The notes under the pieces were generated by a model. The model was not told the origin of the DNA. It searched no databases and saw nothing but the letters and a program-made list of their open reading frames with translations. 64,000 bases of DNA. Source: Bacteroidia bacterium. Lineage in GTDB: Bacteria > Bacteroidota > Bacteroidia > J057 > JAIXKT01. Made by a program: the position numbers and the translations under genes. The stretch is taken from positions 1 through 64,000 of the forward strand of contig JAIXKT010000054.1 of the NCBI GenBank assembly GCA_026932145.1. The letters run 5' to 3'. This document shows positions 4,451 to 17,809 of this stretch, piece by piece (the first letter of the stretch is position 1; each line of letters opens with the position of its first letter).

Positions 4451-5023
4451 ATGGCTAATTTTCAAAATATAACAGTGCCACAATTTAATCCTGGTAAAGG
4501 TGGATTAAACTTGGTTACTATAATACTGAATGTATTCAGTATTATTATCATTTTGTTTGGCCTTATAGGTGCATTTACCGGAGGAATTAATGGTATGAAA
4601 TTTTCTGATGGCATAATGGTAGCCTGTTTAGGGCTTGGCTTCATGCTTTGTGGATATTTATTAATGAAGTTTGGCATAAATAATACAAATGTGGTTTTTT
4701 ATACCGATCGGATTGAATTAACAACCAAAAGAGGGGAAATAAAAAAAACTTTTACCAAAGAGGCCATACAATACATTGCTGCTTATGAATCACTTATGCA
4801 ATCAAGAATGCAACATATCCCTTTTGATAGCCTAAATACCGCCAAAAGCAATTTAACTACCTTTATTATTTATATTGATACGCAACCTTATGATAAAGAG
4901 AGAGTTATAAATCTATTTGAGATTAAAGACCAAAAGAAATCTCTTTTTTTGCATAATAACGAAGAAGCCTGCTCTTGGATAAAAAAATATTATGCTGAAA
5001 AAATTAAAGCCCCAAATACTTAA
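4451..5023 (+). CDS. Small membrane protein of unknown function
   Basis: A 190-residue protein that I do not recognise. Two strongly hydrophobic segments (about residues 20-43 and 51-72), joined by a short Gly/Asn loop, form a membrane hairpin. A hydrophilic C-terminal domain of about 115 residues follows, with alternating strands that suggest a bacterial PH-like fold (YTDRIELTTKRGEIKKTF, then the FIIYIDTQPYD region). The PH-like fold is inference. The gene stands alone, with its own promoter 5' and about 200 bases of non-coding sequence 3'. Confidence 0.6.
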   Translation: MANFQNITVPQFNPGKGGLNLVTIILNVFSIIIILFGLIGAFTGGINGMKFSDGIMVACLGLGFMLCGYLLMKFGINNTNVVFYTDRIELTTKRGEIKKTFTKEAIQYIAAYESLMQSRMQHIPFDSLNTAKSNLTTFIIYIDTQPYDKERVINLFEIKDQKKSLFLHNNEEACSWIKKYYAEKIKAPNT

Positions 5024-5183: not shown

Positions 5184-5204
5184 ATTTGCAACATTGTTGC
5201 AAAT
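5184..5204. promoter_or_regulatory. Perfect 21-bp palindromic operator, probably for a Fur-family regulator
   Basis: Ten bases, a central T and the exact reverse complement of the ten bases form a perfect palindrome: ATTTGCAACA-T-TGTTGCAAAT. The odd centre and 7-1-7 core are typical of Fur/Zur boxes. It covers the -33 TTTG at 5185-5188 and stops four bases before the -7 element at 5209, so a bound repressor would block RNA polymerase. The downstream genes are a lipoprotein and a ZnuD-like receptor, which favours zinc (Zur) or another metal. Which regulator binds is inference. Confidence 0.7.
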
Positions 5205-5216
5205 AAGATATTTTTG
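5185..5216 (+). promoter_or_regulatory. Promoter of the lipoprotein/TonB-receptor operon
   Basis: TTTG at 5185-5188 and TATTTTTG (TAnnTTTG) at 5209-5216 are spaced 20 bases apart, a full match to the Bacteroidota promoter. It is overlapped by the palindrome at 5184-5204. The leader to the GTG at 5241 is about 20 bases. Confidence 0.7.
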
Positions 5217-5240: not shown

Positions 5241-5810
5241 GTGTTTCGCCGTTATATCGTCCCATTATCATGGATGCTGGTTTGCTCCGTCTGGATTTTT
5301 TCTTGCAAAAAAGAAAAAGATGACCCTAAGCTCCAAAATGAATCAGAAATAATAACGACATTCCATTATTACTTAAATCCGGTAGGTGGCGGAACTTCGG
5401 CAGTGTTTACTTTTAGGGATTTAGATGGCGAAGGAGGAAAACCGCCGGAAATCATAACGGATTCTTTAGCTTCAAATAAAGTATATCAAGGGCAGGTCAT
5501 TCTGCTCAATGAACAAAAAAATCCGCCAGATACAATTTCAAAGGAAGTTTTAACCGAAGGAACTAAACATCAACTTTTTTACCAGCCTTCCGTAGCTGGG
5601 CTTAGTGTTCAGTATCAGGATACTGACGCAGACAGAAACCCGATTGGGCTAATAACAAAACTTACAACGGGATCCGCAGCTAATGGCATTCTAAGGGTTA
5701 CACTTCGGCATGAACCCAATAAATCTGCTGCTGGAGTTGTAGCAGGCGACATTACGAATGCCGGAGGCGAAACAGATATAGAAGTTAGCTTTAATGTTAC
5801 GGTTCGTTAG
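5241..5810 (+). CDS. Lipoprotein encoded with a TonB-dependent receptor
   Basis: A 189-residue lipoprotein. The hydrophobic signal ends in FSC at about residue 22, followed by a charged KKEKDD stretch typical of Bacteroidota lipoproteins. The mature domain is a beta-rich fold with a repeated FxDLDGxGG-type loop (about residues 59-66) and a second acidic loop QDTDADRNP. This pattern recurs in lipoproteins paired with ZnuD-like receptors in Flavobacteriia, although I cannot name the family. The GTG start is chosen because the only nearby in-frame ATG (codon 12) would leave too short a signal peptide. It overlaps the receptor gene by 17 bases, so translation is probably coupled. It is likely derepressed together with the receptor when the operator at 5184 is free. 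Confidence 0.7.
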   Translation: MFRRYIVPLSWMLVCSVWIFSCKKEKDDPKLQNESEIITTFHYYLNPVGGGTSAVFTFRDLDGEGGKPPEIITDSLASNKVYQGQVILLNEQKNPPDTISKEVLTEGTKHQLFYQPSVAGLSVQYQDTDADRNPIGLITKLTTGSAANGILRVTLRHEPNKSAAGVVAGDITNAGGETDIEVSFNVTVR

Positions 5811-8100
5811 GCTGATATTTTATATCCATTTGTGGCTACCGATATTGGCATCAGGGCAGCCCTGCAATAAGCATTTAACTGGGTTTATTCGTGATATAAG
5901 CACCGGATACCCAATGAGTTATGCTACAATTTTTATCGAAGAAACTAAACAAGGAGCAATAAGTGATAGTGCGGGAAATTATTCTATATCCGGTATTTGT
6001 TCGGGTAGGTATCATATTCGGGTGAGCCATGTAGGTTGCGAGCCAGACCGTTTTTTTATAGACATATACAGAGATACTACATTTAATATTTATCTGGATC
6101 ATCATCAAAAACTGCTCTCTGATGTTGTGATTACTGAAAGGATTAATCCTATGCAGAATCAACACGTTGTTAAAGAGTCTTTTATTGCCGAAAATGCAGA
6201 CCAAAATTTATCTACATTGATAGAAACGGTAACGGGAGTAAGCTCACTAAAAACAGGAAGCGGTATTGCCAAACCCGTTATTCATGGTTTGTATGGAAAT
6301 CGGGTCAGTATCAATAACAATGGTGCTTTTCAAAGTGGCCAACAGTGGGGTAATGACCATGCGCCGGAAATAGACCCCTTGGCTGCCGGCAAAATAACGG
6401 TGGTTAAAGGAAGCGGCGTCGTTGAATATCCCGGTAACTCATTAGGGGGGGCTATCTTGGTAGAATTTCCGGATATTCCCGAAGAACCTCACCTGCACGG
6501 AAAAATTAATACCTATTTTGGAACAAACGGAATGGAGCAAGGTGCTAATATTCAAGCATATCAAAAAAATAAAATCTTGGGATGGCGGATAAGCGGCACT
6601 CTAAAAAATCAAGGAGACAAAAAAACAGCATCTTACTTCCTCCGAAATACAGGAAGCAGAGAAGCAAATATTCATCTGAAAATCCAAAAAAACTGGTCAG
6701 AAAAGATTCATACCGAAATCTATGGCAGTTCATTTAACACCATTATCGGGATTTTAAGGGGTTCACATATTGGAAATATTACAGACCTACAAGAAGCCTT
6801 GCAGCGCGAAGTGCCCTTTTTTACAGAACCTGATTTTTCATACCAAATTTCTGCCCCGTATCAAGCCGTTAGCCACCATTTATTGAAAGGGAAAACGACC
6901 TTCTTTTTTTCTGAAAAAGCATACTTAGGCGTTGCTTATTTTGGGCAAATTAACATCCGTAAAGAATATGATATTCGGCGTTCCGGGAAAAGTTCAATAC
7001 CTGCATTGAGTCTAAACCAAGTTTCACAATGTATTGAAGTTAAGTATAATAAACAATTTGCCCAAAAATTAGACCTAAAAACAGGCTTTCAATTATTGCG
7101 CATAGACAACACCAACCAGCCGGAAACCGGCATTTTGCCGCTTATTCCGGATTATCTAACACATAAATTTGGCTTTTTCTCATTGTTAAAAAAACAGTAT
7201 CTTCGGTGGCAATTAGAATTAGGGAGCCGCTATGAATATGAAAACCAGAAAGTTGTAACCATAACCAGAGGCATCTCGCCAGCTATTGCTCGATACAATA
7301 ACCATTTTCATAATTTTTCTATTATTTATGGAGCAGCTTATCGCTTCAGCCCGAACTCTACCATGACGGCGAATGCCGGCCTTGCCTCCCGAAGCCCCGA
7401 AATAAATGAACGATATAGTTTTGGGCTTCACCAAGGGCTTAGCAGTATTGAAGAAGGTAATCCCGAATTATCTTCAGAAAGAAGTTTTAAAGCAACTATT
7501 TCTTGGGAGAAAATTATCCAAAAAAAATTTTTTAGCGAATTGTTGGTCTATTATCAAAATATTCGGCAGTTTATTTTATTGAAGCCCCAAAATGAGTTTC
7601 GTTTAACTATTCGCGGCGCATTTCCGGTCTTTCGTTACGAACAGTTACCGGTAACTATCTGGGGAATAGATTACAACGCTTCTTATTATATTAACCCTCA
7701 ACTATATACATCTTTCAAATGTAGTTTTGTGAAAGGTTATGATCAGGTATCTAAAAATACGTTGGTTTATACTCCGCCGACCAATATCGGTGCTGCAATA
7801 GCATACCAAGCAGGGCATTTTCTCTTTTTAGAAAATCTGGGAATCGAGCTTAGCAATAAGTATGTTTTTAAGCAAGTTGGCCTTTCTCCTGAGCAGGATT
7901 TTGCACCGCCACCGCCGGCCTACAATTTATTGGGGCTGAAAATAACCGCACAAAAACTGCTGAAAACACATAATTTTAATTTTTACGTTAAAGTTGATAA
8001 TCTTTTGAATACTCGGTATCGCGATTATTTAAACCGGCTACGGTATTTTGCAGACGACTTAGGAATCAACTGCATTGTGGGCTGCTCTTATACGTTTTAG
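5794..8100 (+). CDS. TonB-dependent outer-membrane receptor, ZnuD-like (probable metal uptake)
   Basis: Outer-membrane receptor of 768 residues. Domains in order: signal peptide (about 1-21, ending SGQ), carboxypeptidase-regulatory-like domain (about 28-110, with TGFIRD..TGYPMSYATIFI), plug domain (about 125-235), then a 22-strand barrel ending in an aromatic residue (Phe768). The plug holds the block HGLYGNRVSINNNG followed by QQWGNDHAPEID, which I know from the ZnuD-like receptor group of Bacteroidota, where His and Asp residues may bind metal. Substrate assignment to zinc is inference, strengthened by the palindromic operator upstream of the operon. The ATG start overlaps the lipoprotein gene by 17 bases. 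It converges on the porin gene with a 44-base gap that holds no clear terminator. Confidence 0.85.
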   Translation: MLRFVRLIFYIHLWLPILASGQPCNKHLTGFIRDISTGYPMSYATIFIEETKQGAISDSAGNYSISGICSGRYHIRVSHVGCEPDRFFIDIYRDTTFNIYLDHHQKLLSDVVITERINPMQNQHVVKESFIAENADQNLSTLIETVTGVSSLKTGSGIAKPVIHGLYGNRVSINNNGAFQSGQQWGNDHAPEIDPLAAGKITVVKGSGVVEYPGNSLGGAILVEFPDIPEEPHLHGKINTYFGTNGMEQGANIQAYQKNKILGWRISGTLKNQGDKKTASYFLRNTGSREANIHLKIQKNWSEKIHTEIYGSSFNTIIGILRGSHIGNITDLQEALQREVPFFTEPDFSYQISAPYQAVSHHLLKGKTTFFFSEKAYLGVAYFGQINIRKEYDIRRSGKSSIPALSLNQVSQCIEVKYNKQFAQKLDLKTGFQLLRIDNTNQPETGILPLIPDYLTHKFGFFSLLKKQYLRWQLELGSRYEYENQKVVTITRGISPAIARYNNHFHNFSIIYGAAYRFSPNSTMTANAGLASRSPEINERYSFGLHQGLSSIEEGNPELSSERSFKATISWEKIIQKKFFSELLVYYQNIRQFILLKPQNEFRLTIRGAFPVFRYEQLPVTIWGIDYNASYYINPQLYTSFKCSFVKGYDQVSKNTLVYTPPTNIGAAIAYQAGHFLFLENLGIELSNKYVFKQVGLSPEQDFAPPPPAYNLLGLKITAQKLLKTHNFNFYVKVDNLLNTRYRDYLNRLRYFADDLGINCIVGCSYTF

Positions 8101-12300: not shown

Positions 12301-12514
12301 AATAAAAAGATTGGCAATAAATAAGGGCAATATTCCGCTAAAAATATAAATAAGTTGCTTATTTTTAATAAAATAGATATTTTATTACAGGATAGAAAAT
12401 ATACAATTGTGTCATCTACAGAATTAGTCGTATTTGATTTTAAATGTGATTCAACTTGTTATCATTTAGTGTAGATTCTATGCCATTGTTGAAACTTGAT
12501 AACAGAAATGCACG

Positions 12515-15181: not shown

Positions 15182-17809
15182 ATGAAAAAAAGCGAATTAA
15201 GTAACTATCTGAAATTTAGAGAGTTTAAAGTATATGGTACAGATGAATGGTACGCAAATGATGAAAAGAAGTATCGTACCGTTTTTGAACAGATGGAAAC
15301 AACTTATGTGTGGACAGAGTTTTCATTCTACAATAAACTCTTTGATGAAAGAAATTGGAATTTAAGTTGTAGCATCAAAGCTTTTCGTAACTCTGATAAC
15401 AGTTTGATATGCGACCAAGATGCCAGCATGGAGATTGTTAAAGAGCTTAACATCGTTTATATCAGAAAGGGCTGGGGGATGGAGAGTGCTGGTGCATTCT
15501 GGACTGCCGGCAGCTATCGCTGGGAGGCATGGATAAATGACGAACTCTTTACCACCACAGAATTTACCGTAAACAACTATGGCATCGTAACGGCACAAGA
15601 AAACCCTTATTTTACCGTAAAACATATTAAAACCTTTGAGTCCGGCTACAATGAACCCGCTATCAATGACCGAGTTTATTACGGCCAATTTGACTCAGAA
15701 GGAACTCGCTATGTGTGGGTAGAATTTACTTTTGAAAATAAACTCAACTATTCTCCTACCAAAAGTAAGTCATGGAAAGGTGAACTTTTCTTCAACTACT
15801 CCGATGATACCGGCCGACTAAAAGGAACAGTTACCCGAAATATAGATATTAATTTAGATACTACAGAATATACCCTAAGTGTTGGTTGGGGTTCTGAAAC
15901 AGCGGGTACTTGGGGTAAAGATAATTTCCGCATGGCCGTTGTCTTTATGGACCAAGTAGTTGCCGTGGCGCCATTCACCGTAGCAGATTCATTCATCTCA
16001 TTAGAAGAATATACTCCCTACACAGGCTTAAATACCTTAACTACCGCCGGTAGCACTACGGCTGCGATAACACCTCCCGAAACCATAGAATCAGTAACCG
16101 AAGAACTTGAATCTATGGTTGGTTTAAATAATATTAAACAAAAGTTAAAAGAATACATCCAGTATCTAAACTTTTTAAAAATTCGCAGCGAAAAAGGGTT
16201 TAGTGATAGCACCCAGATAAACCTACATGCCGTTTTTACAGGAAACCCCGGTACAGGAAAAACAACGGTCGCAAACCTACTTGGTAAGATTTATAAAGTA
16301 TTAGGCTTACTCCCACGCGGGCACGTTCACGAAGTTGACCGCAGCGATATTATTGGAGAATACATAGGCCAAACTGCCCCAAAAATCAAAGATGCAATCG
16401 GAAAAGCGCAAGGCGGAATCCTCTTTATTGATGAAGCCTACTCCCTAACACGAAATAAAGAAGACGGCAAAGACTTCGGGCAAGAAGTAATCGAAATCTT
16501 AGTAAAAGAAATGAATGACCCCAAAAATAACTTTGCAGTCATCGTTGCCGGCTATCCAGAACTCATGGAAAAATTCTTAGATTTTAATCCCGGATTAAAA
16601 TCACGATTCACTGCCGTCTATCATTTTCTGGATTACACCCCGCAAGAACTTATCTTGATAGCAGACTACGCCGCCAACAAACGCAGCGTTACCTTAGAAA
16701 CCGAAGCCAGAGACTTTTTATATACCCGAATTGTAGAAGACTACCGCAATAGAGACGAAACCTTCGGAAACGCCAGATTAGTGCATTCCCTGATAGAAGA
16801 AGCAAAAATGAACTTAGGGCTCAGACTAATGAAATCCCCAGACATTTCAAGCCTGACCAAAGAAGATTTCGCTACCATTAAAGTTGAAGATATTAAAAAG
16901 ATATTTGCTCAAAAAGACAGAATTGTTGCTGATATTCCCATAGATGAAGATTTGCTGCGCGAATCCCTTGCTGAACTTAAAGCTATGGTAGGCTTAGACT
17001 CCGTAAAAAAAGAAATTGATGAGTTAGTTAAATTAGTGCGTTTTTACAGAGAAACTGGACGAGATGTTCGCAAAACCTTTTCCCTACATGCTGTTTTTTC
17101 AGGAAACCCCGGTACCGGAAAAACAACCGTAGCCCGTATTGTTGCCAAAATCTATAAAGCATTGGGAATCTTAGAACGCGGCCACTTAGTAGAAGTAGAT
17201 AGACAAAAACTCATAGCCAGCTACTTAGGCCAAACAGCCGAAAAAACAAATGCCGTAATAGACAAATCTATCGGCGGAATTTTATTCATTGATGAAGCGT
17301 ATGCACTCACTACCAGCGGTGATGACTACGGCAGAGAAGCTGTAGAAGCTATCTTAAAACGTATGGAAGACCAACGCGGCCAATTTGTTGTAATTGTAGC
17401 CGGCTATACAGACCAGATGGAGCAGTTTCTAAACTCTAACCCCGGCCTACGCTCCCGCTTTGATAGGCATTTCTTCTTCCAAGATTACGATGAACATCAA
17501 TTAATGCAAATGGCATTATCCTTATTGGCAGTAGAAAAGTTAAAACCGGATGCCGAAGCACAAGAATACTTAGAACGATTCTTCACCCAAATAGTATCCA
17601 GAAAAGGTAAAAACTTTGGAAACGGCCGCCAAGTACGAAAGGTGATCGAAGCCTCCATCAAAAACCAACATTTACGGCTTGCTACATTATCGCCTTCCCT
17701 ACGTACACCTGAAGCATTATACACGCTGATTTTAGACGATGTGGACGACCTTGTACTGGAAGAGCCCGGCAAAAATCGCAGCAGCATCGGATTTGGCCAA
17801 ACCCAGTAA
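15182..17809 (+). CDS. Tandem CbbX/SpoVK-type AAA+ ATPase with duplicated N-terminal beta-sandwich domain
   Basis: An 875-residue protein. The N-terminal 270 residues are two similar beta-rich units: YVWTEFSFYNKL (42-53) parallels YVWVEFTFENKL (177-188), and KGWGMESAGAFW (96-107) parallels VGWGSETAGTW (234-244). Two CbbX-like AAA+ modules follow, each with GNPGTGKTT (354-362 and 641-649), GGILFIDEA (411-419 and 698-706) and an arginine-finger segment GLKSRF/GLRSRF (471-476 and 755-760). All ATPase residues appear intact in both modules. CbbX-class proteins remodel target proteins; the target here is unknown. There is no signal peptide, so it is cytoplasmic. TAACTTAG at 15143 may be a one-mismatch -7 element. 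A universal stress protein gene follows 67 bases downstream. Confidence 0.85.
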   Translation: MKKSELSNYLKFREFKVYGTDEWYANDEKKYRTVFEQMETTYVWTEFSFYNKLFDERNWNLSCSIKAFRNSDNSLICDQDASMEIVKELNIVYIRKGWGMESAGAFWTAGSYRWEAWINDELFTTTEFTVNNYGIVTAQENPYFTVKHIKTFESGYNEPAINDRVYYGQFDSEGTRYVWVEFTFENKLNYSPTKSKSWKGELFFNYSDDTGRLKGTVTRNIDINLDTTEYTLSVGWGSETAGTWGKDNFRMAVVFMDQVVAVAPFTVADSFISLEEYTPYTGLNTLTTAGSTTAAITPPETIESVTEELESMVGLNNIKQKLKEYIQYLNFLKIRSEKGFSDSTQINLHAVFTGNPGTGKTTVANLLGKIYKVLGLLPRGHVHEVDRSDIIGEYIGQTAPKIKDAIGKAQGGILFIDEAYSLTRNKEDGKDFGQEVIEILVKEMNDPKNNFAVIVAGYPELMEKFLDFNPGLKSRFTAVYHFLDYTPQELILIADYAANKRSVTLETEARDFLYTRIVEDYRNRDETFGNARLVHSLIEEAKMNLGLRLMKSPDISSLTKEDFATIKVEDIKKIFAQKDRIVADIPIDEDLLRESLAELKAMVGLDSVKKEIDELVKLVRFYRETGRDVRKTFSLHAVFSGNPGTGKTTVARIVAKIYKALGILERGHLVEVDRQKLIASYLGQTAEKTNAVIDKSIGGILFIDEAYALTTSGDDYGREAVEAILKRMEDQRGQFVVIVAGYTDQMEQFLNSNPGLRSRFDRHFFFQDYDEHQLMQMALSLLAVEKLKPDAEAQEYLERFFTQIVSRKGKNFGNGRQVRKVIEASIKNQHLRLATLSPSLRTPEALYTLILDDVDDLVLEEPGKNRSSIGFGQTQ

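Follow-up and report, generated by a model that had tools for sequence, protein, structure and literature searches.

A conserved palindrome in the promoter region of a lipoprotein–TonB receptor operon of Bacteroidota as a predicted operator of a Zur-type repressor

Palindrome, promoter, and downstream genes

The window, that is, the whole stretch of 64,000 nucleotides analysed here, contains a perfect palindrome at positions 5184–5204 (ATTTGCAACATTGTTGCAAAT), which is composed of two 10-bp arms without any mismatch around a central T (ATTTGCAACA-T-TGTTGCAAAT). A reading made from the sequence only had described it as a mismatch-free 21-bp palindrome with an odd centre, overlapping the −33 element of a consensus promoter and followed by a lipoprotein gene and the gene of a TonB receptor. 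The palindrome and both genes were found as described. The features of the locus are:

5184..5204, no strand assigned: predicted Zur-type operator, palindrome ATTTGCAACATTGTTGCAAAT with the conserved core TGCAACATTGTTGCA at 5187–5201
5185..5188, plus strand: −33 promoter element TTTG, assigned by sequence, within the operator, absent from most orthologs
5209..5216, plus strand: −7 promoter element TATTTTTG, which fits TAnnTTTG and begins 7 nt past the core
5241..5810, plus strand: lipoprotein of a conserved family without a Pfam model, with signal peptide, lipobox Cys22, and predicted beta-sandwich
5794..8100, plus strand: TonB-dependent receptor with CarboxypepD_reg-like domain, plug, and barrel; 80 orthologs

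The elements TTTG (5185–5188) and TATTTTTG (5209–5216) are separated by 20 bases, and 4 bases lie between the end of the palindrome and TATTTTTG; overlap and spacing match those given by the sequence-only reading. We take TTTG and TAnnTTTG to be the −33/−7 consensus promoter pair of Bacteroidota. The window contains a single copy of the 21-mer (0 expected), and no second copy with up to two mismatches was found in the whole 3.48-Mb genome. Since the window harbors four separate perfect palindromes with 10-bp arms (0.35 expected), the palindrome alone is not decisive. A perfect inverted repeat (AATACTGAATGTATTCAGTATT) is located at 4522–4543 inside an ORF (4451–5023), and further perfect palindromes at 12366–12387 (TAATAAAATAGATATTTTATTA, behind the gene of the ATP synthase epsilon subunit) and 16580–16602 (GATTTTAATCCCGGATTAAAATC).

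Both gene starts, the GTG of the lipoprotein gene at 5241 and the start of the TonB receptor gene at 5794, are located downstream of the palindrome, and the two genes overlap by 17 bases. The lipoprotein comprises 189 amino acids. Its lipobox Cys22 is invariant, and an alignment of 44 lipoproteins shows no or almost no variation at D62, E102, E106, H110, D127, D129, H157, and D179. The predicted fold is mostly beta and confident (pLDDT 91.7). No Pfam family was found for the protein, and a Foldseek search against the PDB gave no structural relative at E ≤ 0.001. The invariant Glu/His/Asp pattern would suit metal binding if these residues come together in the folded protein.

The receptor had been called ZnuD-like. 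Its best PDB match by sequence is indeed ZnuD, in the plug region, and like Neisseria ZnuD it is an outer-membrane TonB receptor. The resemblance is weak, however: it scores 85.5 bits against the NCBIfam ZnuD model (cut-off 950), far below family level, matches hemoglobin/transferrin receptors equally well (89 bits) and also copper receptors, and differs from Neisseria ZnuD in its N-terminal CarboxypepD_reg-like domain and the conserved lipoprotein gene in front.

Conservation of the box and its neighboring genes

A scan of bacterial genomes yielded orthologs of the TonB receptor (42–51% identity) at 80 loci, mostly from Saprospiraceae, but also from Flavobacteriaceae and Prolixibacteraceae; the lipoprotein–TonB gene pair is retained in 75 of them. 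Wenyingzhuangia (L042/L065) is one of the relatives with the operon. Boxes were counted in the 73 loci having at least 750 bp of upstream sequence. The core TGCAACANTGTTGCA was present with up to two mismatches in 51 of these 73 upstream regions and exactly in 37, whereas 60 compositionally matched control palindromes averaged 0.22 matches, with one at most. No recognisable core was found in the remaining 22. Conservation upstream of orthologous operons had been proposed as a check of the regulatory reading, and because of it the palindrome stands out from chance.

Conservation covers the 15-bp core and its AAA/TTT-rich flanks, upstream of the lipoprotein gene. Core positions 1, 2, 4, 10, 11, 12, and 13 (0-based) are invariant in all 51 regions. 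TAnnTTTG begins 7–11 nt past the core in 33 of the 51, most often 9–10 nt. The distance of the −7 element is nearly fixed among the orthologs, but the −33 TTTG within the box belongs to the window copy, most orthologs having AAATGCA. A palindrome overlapping a promoter at a conserved distance from the −7 element is what would be expected of a Zur box, and zinc uptake is the probable function of the genes downstream.

The palindrome might also act as an RNA hairpin, either as an RNA element or as a terminator, as it gave a terminator-like hairpin score on both strands and an RNA folding z of −1.69. However, this fold is unexceptional (13 of 200 shuffles were equally good), the bases themselves are conserved beyond what pairing demands, and the site lies directly upstream of a conserved −7 element and not before a T-tract. 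The exceptional hairpin, T-tract, and position at a gene end that mark an intrinsic terminator do not come together here. On its conservation pattern, this explanation was rejected as highly improbable.

The symmetric pattern TTGCAAC-N3-GTTGCAA occurs exactly twice in the window's genome, and its reversed control pattern not at all. The second exact box (contig C29:16655) is located a few bases upstream of the only MerC gene of the genome. At two mismatches, the pattern and its control each gave 14 matches, and the regulon in this genome was therefore kept at two sites. The arms of the second box extend to 14 bp (CTTTTTGTTGCAAC-TTT-GTTGCAACAAAAAG), with the MerC gene directly behind (1498–1872 of locus L005).

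Exact sites were detected in 37 further loci in a scan of 100 relatives and 395 genomes of the phylum; in the 395 genomes, 23 real sites (including the window's own) compare with one palindromic site of the reversed control. The neighboring genes of the 37 loci were annotated by hand, backed by Pfam and NCBIfam. In 26 loci, the site adjoins a gene for MerC, a ZIP transporter, a COG0523/ZigA-like protein, DUF1826, a TonB receptor, the cognate lipoprotein, or a divergent Fur-family regulator of the type described below (L004 type). Among these, ZIP (PF02535) adjoins the exact box at L125, DUF1826 genes those at L115 and L123, and a COG0523 GTPase (cobW) the box at L128, the latter with 539.5 bits to the zinc chaperone ZigA (cut-off 600). 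The other 11 comprise three loci with DUF4625 lipoproteins only, one with another small lipoprotein, three unclear cases, and four sites likely due to chance (L117, L122, L124, and L162), three of which lie within genes, the context of L124 being uncertain. No znuABC genes were found at any box examined. A scan for sites before metal genes had likewise been suggested; the other boxes are not placed at random but precede metal genes, among them those of a ZIP zinc transporter, ZigA-like COG0523 GTPases, and the divergent Fur-family regulator. Recurrence ahead of independent zinc homeostasis genes in other genomes is a further property of a Zur box.

The same gene families are known from described regulons: the Zur regulon of Francisella includes COG0523, ZIP, and DUF1826 (PMC5786701), and Zur-regulated COG0523 clusters contain DUF1826 and outer-membrane receptors (PMC2770081). 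The box recurs across the phylum Bacteroidota before zinc genes and the gene of the probable repressor itself. In the window's genome, no ZIP gene was found, cobW family matches are weak only, and a box was looked for near the ABC-3 metal permease gene (L160, contig C7 of genome G000) without result; the zinc specificity therefore rests on the regulons of relatives and on the regulator. The permease (L160:1462–2958) has a long C-terminal extension that, by eye, resembles a DtxR-type regulator domain.

A divergent Fur-family paralog as candidate regulator

The genome of the window encodes two Fur-family proteins, the canonical L003 (contig C44, 102 bits) and the divergent L004 (31 bits), the gene of which is located outside the window at contig C7:420308–420721. 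All box-adjacent Fur-family genes in other genomes are of the L004 type and none is canonical. A 47-protein tree places a branch with 100/100 support between the two types. At 19 of the 80 orthologous loci, an L004-type gene is found next to the TonB operon, and in genomes G470 and G269 such a gene encodes the sole Fur-family protein alongside a box. An L004-type protein is encoded in 18 of 20 box genomes compared to 105 of 395 overall (E ≤ 1e-20; Fisher p = 1.6e-9, with genomes treated as unrelated), and the two exceptions hold only chance-like sites (L122 and L124). No box was found at the gene of the regulator in the window's genome, and autoregulation there was rejected.

A classical iron-Fur operator, through which the canonical Fur encoded on contig C44 would repress a receptor operon for iron or heme, would be in line with the presence of that gene, and many TonB operons of similar type are iron-controlled. 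With zero box-adjacent regulators in the canonical clade, two box genomes (G470 and G269) lacking canonical Fur, and a palindrome unlike the Fur box (GATAATGATAATCATTATC), an iron-Fur operator is very hard to uphold. The divergent C7 paralog, a protein of 147 amino acids, is most likely the regulator of the box in the window's genome.

L004 belongs to the Fur family by a PF01475 score above cut-off, a complete Cys4 site, and a Fur-family fold in the structural model (pLDDT 90.7). A fold search with this model returned the E. coli Zur–DNA complex among the top matches, Zur not being separated from Fur/PerR by it. Among NCBIfam models, L004 matches Zur best and L003 matches Fur best, each under the cut-off, and the curated Zur model PRK11639 gave 30.5 bits for L004 and 41.7 bits for L017 (cut-off 167). 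PRK11639 is a narrow equivalog, so a score under its cut-off limits the name and not the mechanism.

In the alignment, H69, C83, H97, and H99 of L004 correspond to D65, C79, H85, and H87 of Streptomyces coelicolor Zur, which we take to be the sensory ligands, so Cys and His ligands occupy the Zur positions. They are conserved in 36, 35, 36, and 36 of 36 L004-type proteins, respectively, and the structural Cys4 site is complete in all 36. The canonical Fur paralogs lack a Cys at the position of C83 and mostly have Ser instead. A sensory site of mixed N/S/O ligands is described for Zur proteins (review PMC6103462). L004 shares the fold, the aligned sensory positions (His/Asp, Cys, His, His), and the structural Cys4 site with the Zur proteins of S. 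coelicolor (3mwm, 7vo0) and E. coli (4mtd), but overall identity is low, His replaces Asp65, and C88 and C110 are additional conserved cysteines.

The same operator and the divergent paralog could respond to another effector (nickel, cobalt, copper, manganese, mercury, or heme) and control its uptake. In favor of this, the receptor matches hemoglobin/transferrin and copper receptors as given above, the name MerC derives from mercury, the copper protein family SCO1 is represented in one boxed operon, and COG0523/CobW families are not restricted to zinc. The ZIP/ZupT-like transporter, the ZigA-like chaperone, and DUF1826, on the other hand, indicate zinc, and the regulator carries the Zur-type Cys ligand, which makes another effector unlikely.

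Proposed mechanism and comparison with known Zur regulons

The palindrome is very probably the operator of a lineage-specific Bacteroidota Zur, a Fur-family dimer that would repress a lipoprotein and TonB receptor operon for zinc import. The earlier proposal of a repressor-controlled import operon for a metal, probably zinc, is thereby supported by the conservation, the neighboring genes, and the Zur-type ligands. From these comparisons, we infer the following course of events. With sufficient zinc, the zinc-loaded dimer would occupy the 7-1-7 core. Repression would suit the site because the bound dimer would cover the DNA between −33 and −7, so that transcription of the operon would be blocked. 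At low zinc, the dimer would leave the DNA and lipoprotein and receptor would be made; the lipoprotein, at the surface or in the periplasm, and the outer-membrane receptor could then bring in zinc. The second genomic box would control the MerC-type membrane protein, a candidate for the inner-membrane step. A more speculative extension, which we regard as possible but rather doubtful, is an undescribed two-part zinc capture, in which a surface lipoprotein (E102-x3-E106-x3-H110, H157, and Asp) hands zinc to the TonB receptor, with MerC as a Zur-controlled inner-membrane zinc importer where ZIP is absent.

The predicted regulon resembles Zur regulons of Proteobacteria in its Fur-family zinc sensor and in ZIP, COG0523, and DUF1826 as targets (Francisella novicida, PMC5786701), and that of Caulobacter crescentus in the TonB receptors among the targets (PMC4176598). 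In contrast to the proteobacterial regulons, the operator is TGCAACANTGTTGCA, the regulator belongs to a divergent clade, and the boxes add the lipoprotein partner, MerC, and DUF4625 proteins, while znuABC is missing from those examined. No published Zur box of Bacteroidota was found in the open-access papers searched, and a review on Zur mentions neither Bacteroidetes nor Flavobacteria (PMC6103462).

A 15-bp operator together with an identified regulator clade would make zinc regulons readable from genomes of Bacteroidota. A role in zinc starvation is suggested for several anonymous proteins, namely, the lipoprotein family, MerC, the DUF4625 lipoproteins, and a flavin oxidoreductase, and the lipoprotein and MerC may be new candidate parts of zinc uptake. 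Bacteroidota dominate the gut and many aquatic communities.

Some further arrangements were observed at the boxes. MerC recurs at boxes of many relatives. A flavin/NAD oxidoreductase (assigned by eye, no known zinc link) is encoded at three boxes (L118:210–1115, L163:1619–2626, and L164:587–1480), twice beside MerC. At L019, L020, and L028, the gene of a small His/Cys-rich protein, a candidate for zinc binding, separates the box from that of a TonB receptor or DUF4625 lipoprotein. Tandem box pairs 37–38 bp apart were found at L031:448/486, L076:3294/3331, L101:3349/3387, L103:3341/3378, and L126:1501/1539, and three tandem pairs stand between divergent regulator and lipoprotein genes. In genome G280, a box pair is located 3.3 kb from a further box with one mismatch, which is positioned between the regulator gene and a MerC–folE pair (folE assigned by eye). 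The fixed tandem spacing may mean that each box serves its own promoter or that binding is cooperative.
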